Of a stretch of 64,000 nucleotides of DNA, positions 62,674 to 62,824 are shown in pieces. Position 1 is the stretch's first letter; the number at the start of each line of letters is the position of its first letter. Both the position numbers and the translations under genes were made by a program. Origin of the DNA: Microbacterium testaceum (GTDB lineage Bacteria; Actinomycetota; Actinomycetes; Actinomycetales; Microbacteriaceae); assembly GCF_001476655.1 (NCBI RefSeq), contig NZ_LDRT01000005.1:1-64000 (forward strand). Direction: 5' to 3'. Below the pieces are notes generated by a model. It saw nothing but the letters and a program-made list of their open reading frames with translations, had not been told where the DNA came from and did not search any database.

Positions 62674-62824
62674 TACGATCACAGAATGCGCTTCGGTGGT
62701 CTGCTTCTTCTTAGCTGCCGCGACGAGTCCTCGATCTAGGGCCATCCTCGTCGCGGAGCTCGTCGTCGGCCCCTCCTGATGCCCTTCGCGGGGCGGGAAC
62801 CACGAACAAGAGAAGCGACACACC
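62674..62824 (+). promoter_or_regulatory. leuA promoter and transcription attenuator
   Basis: TACGAT (62674-62679) is the -10, and the leader-peptide ATG follows after 6 nt. CCGCGACGAG (62718-62727), inside the leader peptide, pairs exactly with CTCGTCGCGG (62747-62756). A second set of arms (GGAGCTCGTCGTCGGCCCC and downstream CTTCGCGGGGCGGG) can compete. Ribosome stalling at the leucine codons would hold the first arm and change which hairpin forms. This is the classical leucine attenuation layout, known for leuA in other actinobacteria. Confidence 0.88.
62686..62739 (+). CDS. leuA leader peptide
   Basis: A 17-residue peptide MRFGGLLLLSCRDESSI with four successive leucine codons (CTG CTT CTT CTT), three of them the CTT rarely used in this genome, then TAG. 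It begins 6 nt after the -10 and so would be translated from a leaderless mRNA. Its sole role would be to measure leucyl-tRNA-Leu supply. Confidence 0.9.
   Translation: MRFGGLLLLSCRDESSI

Follow-up and report, generated by a model that had tools for sequence, protein, structure and literature searches.

A LEU element with a predicted leaderless leucine leader probably controls leuA translation in a Microbacterium

The window examined here, by which we mean the whole 64,000-nucleotide stretch of Microbacterium testaceum DNA that was analysed, ends within leuA, the gene for 2-isopropylmalate synthase, whose encoded stretch is 98% identical to that of Microbacterium sp. T32 and 97% identical to that of M. 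hydrothermale. A short ORF of 17 codons, encoding MRFGGLLLLSCRDESSI and containing the four adjacent leucine codons CTG CTT CTT CTT, is located in front of leuA on the same strand. The sequence leading into this ORF reads, in order, TG (62671-62672), TACGAT (62674-62679), CACAGA (62680-62685) and the ATG at 62686. The features of the locus are as follows.

62671-62679, + strand: extended -10 element TGG-TACGAT, read from the sequence; TGN-TANNNT is conserved in relatives
62686-62739, + strand: leader ORF, MRFGGLLLLSCRDESSI and stop codon, predicted to be leaderless; the A of its ATG is the seventh base after the -10
62701-62712, + strand: CTG CTT CTT CTT, which presumably acts as the sensor and supplies the 5' strand of the base stem, from sequence, pairing and covariation
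62718-62727, + strand: 5' arm of hairpin P1, CCGCGACGAG, inside the codons of ..CRDE
62739-62743, + strand: 5' strand of the putative pseudoknot, GGGCC, in the P1 loop, from sequence and class-level covariation
62747-62756, + strand: 3' arm of hairpin P1, CTCGTCGCGG
62768-62772, + strand: 3' strand of the putative pseudoknot, GGCCC, from sequence and class-level covariation
62808-62815, + strand: leuA Shine-Dalgarno (SD) region, AAGAGAAG, also the 3' strand of the base stem and partner of the Leu run
62825-64000, + strand: leuA, 2-isopropylmalate synthase, running off the window (NCBIfam, E 7e-209)

A GNAT-like acetyltransferase (62066-62653) and, by eye, an apparent quinone oxidoreductase (61044-62069) separate leuA from an Era-like GTPase ORF, and in the relatives L018 and L026 the Era-like C-terminus appeared, also by eye, directly 5' of the leader. 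Rfam gave no match at the gathering threshold in the leuA leader region, where three hits at E<=10 all scored far below their gathering scores, and the only match at that threshold in the window was a tRNA gene on the minus strand (30594-30666). NCBIfam had no match for the 29-residue stretch containing the leader.

The original prediction placed a leader with four leucine codons 6 nt after a -10 element, and this is exact in the window. A -10 at precisely this distance from the leader ATG means that the RNA should be leaderless, and judging from this geometry we infer that transcription starts at the leader ATG. Relatives were collected with a covariance model, R1, trained on 30 leuA leaders plus a single leuC leader, which at E<=0.01 matched 145/150 genomes of the family and 363/394 genomes of the class. 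The search family was taken as Microbacteriaceae from named relatives; Leifsonia xyli is presumably a member of the same family as the window's organism. The set of 112 distinct elements (72 before leuA and 40 before leuC; 103 from the window's family and nine from others) leaves out identical elements as well as L089 and L098, for which no start was found. When distances of 3-9 nt between TANNNT and the start codon were searched, all 112 parsed elements had TANNNT followed by an in-frame start codon after 6-9 nt (ATG in 39, GTG in 73), and the spacing was exactly 6 nt in 95 of them. The same geometry was found for 9/112 and 1/112 elements in the two remaining frames, and TANNNT occurred at 6 of 6,658 positions in the flank further upstream. 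TG preceded the -10 as TGN-TANNNT in 105/112 elements, whereas the background frequency of TG is 0.059. The Leu run consisted of three or four adjacent leucine codons, with one element having two, and every one of the 112 elements had an in-frame stop, which in 94 lay 3 nt behind the 5' arm of P1.

Since R1 includes promoter columns, the set of 112 carries ascertainment, and the geometry test was therefore repeated on 80 loci picked by LeuA protein similarity alone, which are free of it. Leu run, hairpin, -10 and in-frame start were present together in 78/80 of these loci, 72 at 6 nt, and 61 of the 78 had TG before the -10; four gene starts in this sample are off (L302, L319, L322 and L329), which leaves the leader test unaffected. 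In the two misses, L270 and L299, the element is visible by eye and the Leu run is interrupted. Along with L253, these are natural leaders in which the run is interrupted or shortened, with Q, I or R within it. A class-level set of 50 elements, comprising 40 picked from the best-scoring places plus L116-L125, ten that are shared with the 112, had the geometry in 48/50 at a spacing of 6-10 nt, with 5/50 and 7/50 in the control frames. All members of this set come from other families except L125, which is from the window's own, and L137 was misparsed but kept; the two elements without the geometry are leaders with mixed codons. The counts of 112/112 and 78/80 support the proposal of a leucine leader peptide before leuA whose start coincides with the predicted 5' end of a leaderless RNA.

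The absence of a ribosome-binding site for the leader, another part of the original prediction, also held, as the mean anti-SD energy 5' of leader starts (-2.18 kcal/mol) was no better than that of random positions (-2.40), whereas gene starts averaged -5.26 kcal/mol. In the window, the region upstream of the leader and the leuA SD both have an anti-SD energy of -2.9, so that the SD of leuA itself is weak by this measure, a point that speaks against the control of leuA translation proposed below. A search for E. coli-type promoters between 62500 and 62900 found no site.

The leader region of the window folds better than all 200 of its shuffles (z -3.25). The two arms of P1 pair with each other (62718-62727 with 62747-62756), a pseudoknot is possible between the GGGCC of its loop and the GGCCC further 3', and positions 62704-62712 of the Leu run pair with the SD region at a probability of 0.66-1.0 per base. 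Seliverstov, Putzer, Gelfand and Lyubetsky described in 2005 the LEU element that precedes leuA in Actinobacteria, and already proposed a base stem between the Leu run and the SD together with a pseudoknot, preferring a regulatory protein as the effector (PMC1262725). Both contacts were found here, the base stem with this pairing probability and with covariation (0/10,000 permutations) and the pseudoknot 3' of the Leu run as GGGCC/GGCCC; on its sequence, the element in the window is the LEU element of these authors.

Covariation was tested on the set of 112 after removal of identical pairs, which left 109 and 110 elements. The duplex of a Leu run with its own SD had a mean energy of -9.03 kcal/mol versus -7.99 kcal/mol for mismatched partners (n=109), a difference reached in none of 10,000 permutations, although these leave relatedness in. 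Taken by gene, the counts were 0/10,000 for leuA alone and 1/10,000 for leuC alone, and doubtful leuC starts (L069, L070, L077, L084, L096 and L109) add noise to this test. The pairing signal was also slid along the untranslated region in 107 elements, five with an apparently misassigned gene start being left out of this set and of the SD-opening set described below. It appeared in the SD windows only (z -5.2, -6.8 and -4.1), and no Leu-run signal was seen further upstream of the SD (z -1.1 to 0.2). For the pseudoknot, the class set gave an own score of 17.1 against 15.1, with 0/10,000 permutations (n=50; relatedness uncorrected), and its co-varying strands included ACCGGC/GCCGGT, CCGGGC/GCCCGG, GCTGGC/GCCAGC and TCCGGA/TCCGGA. 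The pseudoknot signal within the 112 elements was modest (14/10,000 by duplex energy and 304/10,000 by stem length), and leuC elements alone gave it no permutation support (5,687 and 2,610 of 10,000). Codon choice was examined as well: CTT makes up 212 of the 398 codons in Leu runs versus 0 of the 31 leucine codons in the window's part of leuA. In how well it pairs with its own SD, the Leu run of the window comes 130th of the 1,296 synonymous runs, and 23 of the 46 elements with three leucine codons fall in the best tenth of theirs. The contacts supported in this way, Leu run with SD and the pseudoknot, point to control of leuA translation.

We consider it probable, on the strength of these sequence comparisons, that a LEU element with a leaderless leucine leader ORF controls the translation of leuA in this Microbacterium. 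The first base of the RNA would be the A of the leader AUG, with a ribosome loading onto this 5' end; the sensing ribosome probably enters through the leaderless start. With ample Leu-tRNA, this ribosome would reach the stop codon behind the 5' arm of P1 and depart, after which P1, the pseudoknot and the base stem could form and cover the leuA SD (OFF). When Leu-tRNA is scarce, the ribosome would stall on the leucine codons, which are the very strand that covers the SD, and the SD would be left open (ON). The leucine codons would thus be sensor and lid at once, and a terminator would be unnecessary. Folding calculations in which the ribosome was a 29-nt mask and the pseudoknot was ignored are consistent with such a switch. 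An unpaired SD had a mean probability of 0.22 in free leuA leaders, 0.46 with the ribosome on the leucine codons and 0.22 with the ribosome on the stop codon (n=71), and the leuC elements behaved alike (0.24, 0.48 and 0.26; n=36). The stalled-ribosome mask raised SD opening in 65/71 leuA and 33/36 leuC elements; the stop-codon mask did so in 32/71 and 24/36, and by little. In the window itself, the probability was 0.18 when free, 0.85 when stalled (mean of the four leucine positions) and 0.17 at the stop codon.

Transcription attenuation, whether intrinsic or Rho-dependent, would have polymerase stop before leuA once the leader is read through; the original prediction likewise spoke of an attenuator with competing hairpins. 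The leader peptide, the competing structures and the long untranslated stretch before leuA are all compatible with it. Earlier papers list the leuA leaders of Streptomyces lividans and Corynebacterium glutamicum as attenuators, and the leuA leader of the latter was reportedly recovered in a small-RNA study. Against this, no intrinsic terminator was found on the + strand between 62500 and 62900, and T runs between the hairpin and the gene are rare in the 112 elements (TTTT in 8, TTTTT in 2). The LeuL1 leader of S. lividans is likewise described in PMC8079986 as being without a typical Rho-independent terminator. The classical attenuator was therefore rejected for the intrinsic type, and attenuation of either type leaves the covariation with the SD unexplained. 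Control by competing terminator hairpins found no support, the co-varying contacts being those of Leu run with SD and of the pseudoknot, and we regard stopping of transcription as unlikely to be the mode of control here.

The compact and conserved fold could also be the binding site of a regulatory protein, with the leader peptide being incidental. Seliverstov et al. put forward orthologs of M. leprae ML1624 for this role, and argued from the phylogenetic pattern and from S. coelicolor mutants; for the latter they cite Craster 1999, in which leader mutations did not fit classical attenuation (PMC1262725). However, all 112 elements conserve the start, the frame, the Leu run and the stop, and the distance from Leu run to P1 is 2 or 5 nt, shifting only by a whole codon and having the same value modulo 3 in all 112. 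This conservation and this spacing argue for translation of the leader, and the protein-site reading seems quite improbable to us. Mutations in the leucine codons would also break the base stem, which makes the S. coelicolor mutants compatible with a ribosome sensor. Under translational control by the stalled ribosome, changed leucine codons would break the lid on the SD as well, a simple possible answer to the S. coelicolor paradox; it is possible that the double role of these codons explains the paradoxical codon mutations in Streptomyces. A chance ORF behind a fortuitous -10 in a GC-rich intergenic gap can practically be dismissed, for although short ORFs are common (47 mechanical ORFs of at least 20 aa in its final 4 kb alone, for the window), conservation has already refuted it, with R1 matching 145/150 family and 363/394 class genomes and the other-frame controls at 9/112 and 1/112.

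The same genome carries a second LEU element (L002; G000:C228), on the reverse strand at about 1490-1606 and before leuC, as identified by NCBIfam. Its leader starts with GTG, is predicted to be leaderless and encodes (V/M)RIVGLLLSGRDETLF; the sequence runs TATCGT, GACGAG, then GTG CGG ATC GTC GGC CTC CTC CTT AGC GGC CGC GAC GAG ACC TTG TTC TAG, and its SD, GAGGAG, is complementary to its own CTCCTC. Two or more R1 places were present in 99/150 family genomes, and all 37 of the second sites that were fetched precede leuC. Among family genomes with at least three matches, the extra places that were fetched comprised five before a second leuA and one before leuC. Among LeuC loci sampled from 30 families of the class (30 loci, the best of 43 genomes with LeuC), no locus other than that of the window's own genome matched R1 at E<0.01, so that the leuC element looks like a trait of the Microbacteriaceae, as far as sequence matches tell.

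Outside the window's family, at least six families have related elements with mixed Val/Ile/Leu leaders before leuB, such as MRSVFVLIDCRGEA (L178) and MTRIFVLPSRGGAR (L210). The leuB-associated elements are L161, L178, L179, L180, L181, L187, L190, L191, L192, L195 and L210, with leuB confirmed by NCBIfam for eight loci (L161, L178-L181, L187, L190 and L191). All 13 mixed-codon leaders examined have TANNNT 6-10 nt before ATG; they include L147 and L186, for which NCBIfam did not confirm leuB and the gene is unconfirmed. In two genomes from different families (L161 and L191), a small ORF ending in ..MDRRDNGGETGH lies between the leader and leuB. An element stood in front of leuB at four of 30 LeuB loci from 30 families (L192, L195, L201 and L210), a sample of 30 of the 46 genomes with LeuB, and a universal leuB element was rejected on this count. 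None of these four elements was in R1 training, whereas R2 training included L192, L195 and the element of L201 (the same as L190), and L210 shares its family with the training member L191. The other strong hits in LeuB loci (L204, L213, L215 and L218) are on the opposite strand, before leuA. LEU-like elements also precede second, divergent leuA genes whose products are 52-58% identical to the window's LeuA (L172, L174-L177, L188 and L189). In a search of open-licence literature, no earlier description of elements of the LEU kind before leuC or leuB turned up.

We lean, with some reserve, towards a single portable device, made up of a leaderless sensor ORF, sensing codons that are also the anti-Shine-Dalgarno strand, and P1 with its pseudoknot, that Actinomycetes may have employed repeatedly along their leucine pathway to control translation rather than termination. 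Nearly all sampled genomes would have it at leuA, the Microbacteriaceae would carry a second unit at leuC, at least six further families a version with Val/Ile/Leu codons at leuB, and additional copies would stand in front of second leuA genes. The covariation of the sensor codons with the SD supports the base-stem idea of 2005. Should the copies before leuC and leuB prove sound, a leucine regulon would be under one RNA device that lacks an intrinsic terminator and can be mapped from sequence, and leaderless initiation would be a regular loading route for the sensing ribosome. The extension to leuC and leuB is the part worth following; the leuA finding alone is ordinary and serves as an entry point.

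Enteric leu and trp attenuators have an SD-led leader peptide with regulatory codons and a terminator/antiterminator. The element in the window shares the regulatory codons with them, but the SD-led leader and the terminator/antiterminator are absent, so the contrast drawn in the original prediction was right, though already known. As far as the sequence tells, the prediction also appears right on the leaderless start and on leucine sensing. Leaders of C. glutamicum (Neshat 2014; Morbach 2000) are reportedly amino-acid leader peptides as well; the title of Morbach 2000 announces that at ilvBNC a leader peptide is formed without a ribosome binding site, and control of this operon differs in being reported as attenuation with terminator sequences. 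A point against a leaderless start at leuA comes from C. diphtheriae, for which PMC5784534 describes weak transcription of the leuA leader and no assignable start site. Polycysteine sORFs of mycobacteria, named as leaderless attenuators in the title of Canestrari 2020, are likewise leaderless regulatory ORFs and are termed translation attenuation in PMC13236596, but it is cysteine that they sense. LeuL1 of S. lividans TK24, MRFGLLLLSCRGEGL, according to PMC8079986 lies before leuA, is transcribed leaderless and has no typical Rho-independent terminator; the paper adds that leaderless transcription is also on record for leuA of other Actinobacteria, with reference to Seliverstov 2005, Neshat 2014, the source it gives for leuA leaders, and Wolf 2017. 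The LeuL1 peptide, as given there, differs from the window's in length and tail. It occurs identically in L145 and L148, where the -10 lies 9-10 nt from the ATG versus 6 nt in the window. Since the leaderlessness of LeuL1 has already been reported in that paper, a leaderless attenuator is not new, and a leaderless leader at leuA belongs to established biology. As described by Seliverstov et al. in 2005, who included Leifsonia xyli among their genomes, the LEU element resembles the window's in its Leu-run leader, its pseudoknot, its base stem of leucine codons with the leuA SD and in having no terminator described (PMC1262725). Their text differs in leaving a leaderless start unmentioned and in naming a protein as the likely regulator, and where it mentions no genes other than leuA and a transposase of B. 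longum, the present work adds the elements before leuC and leuB.
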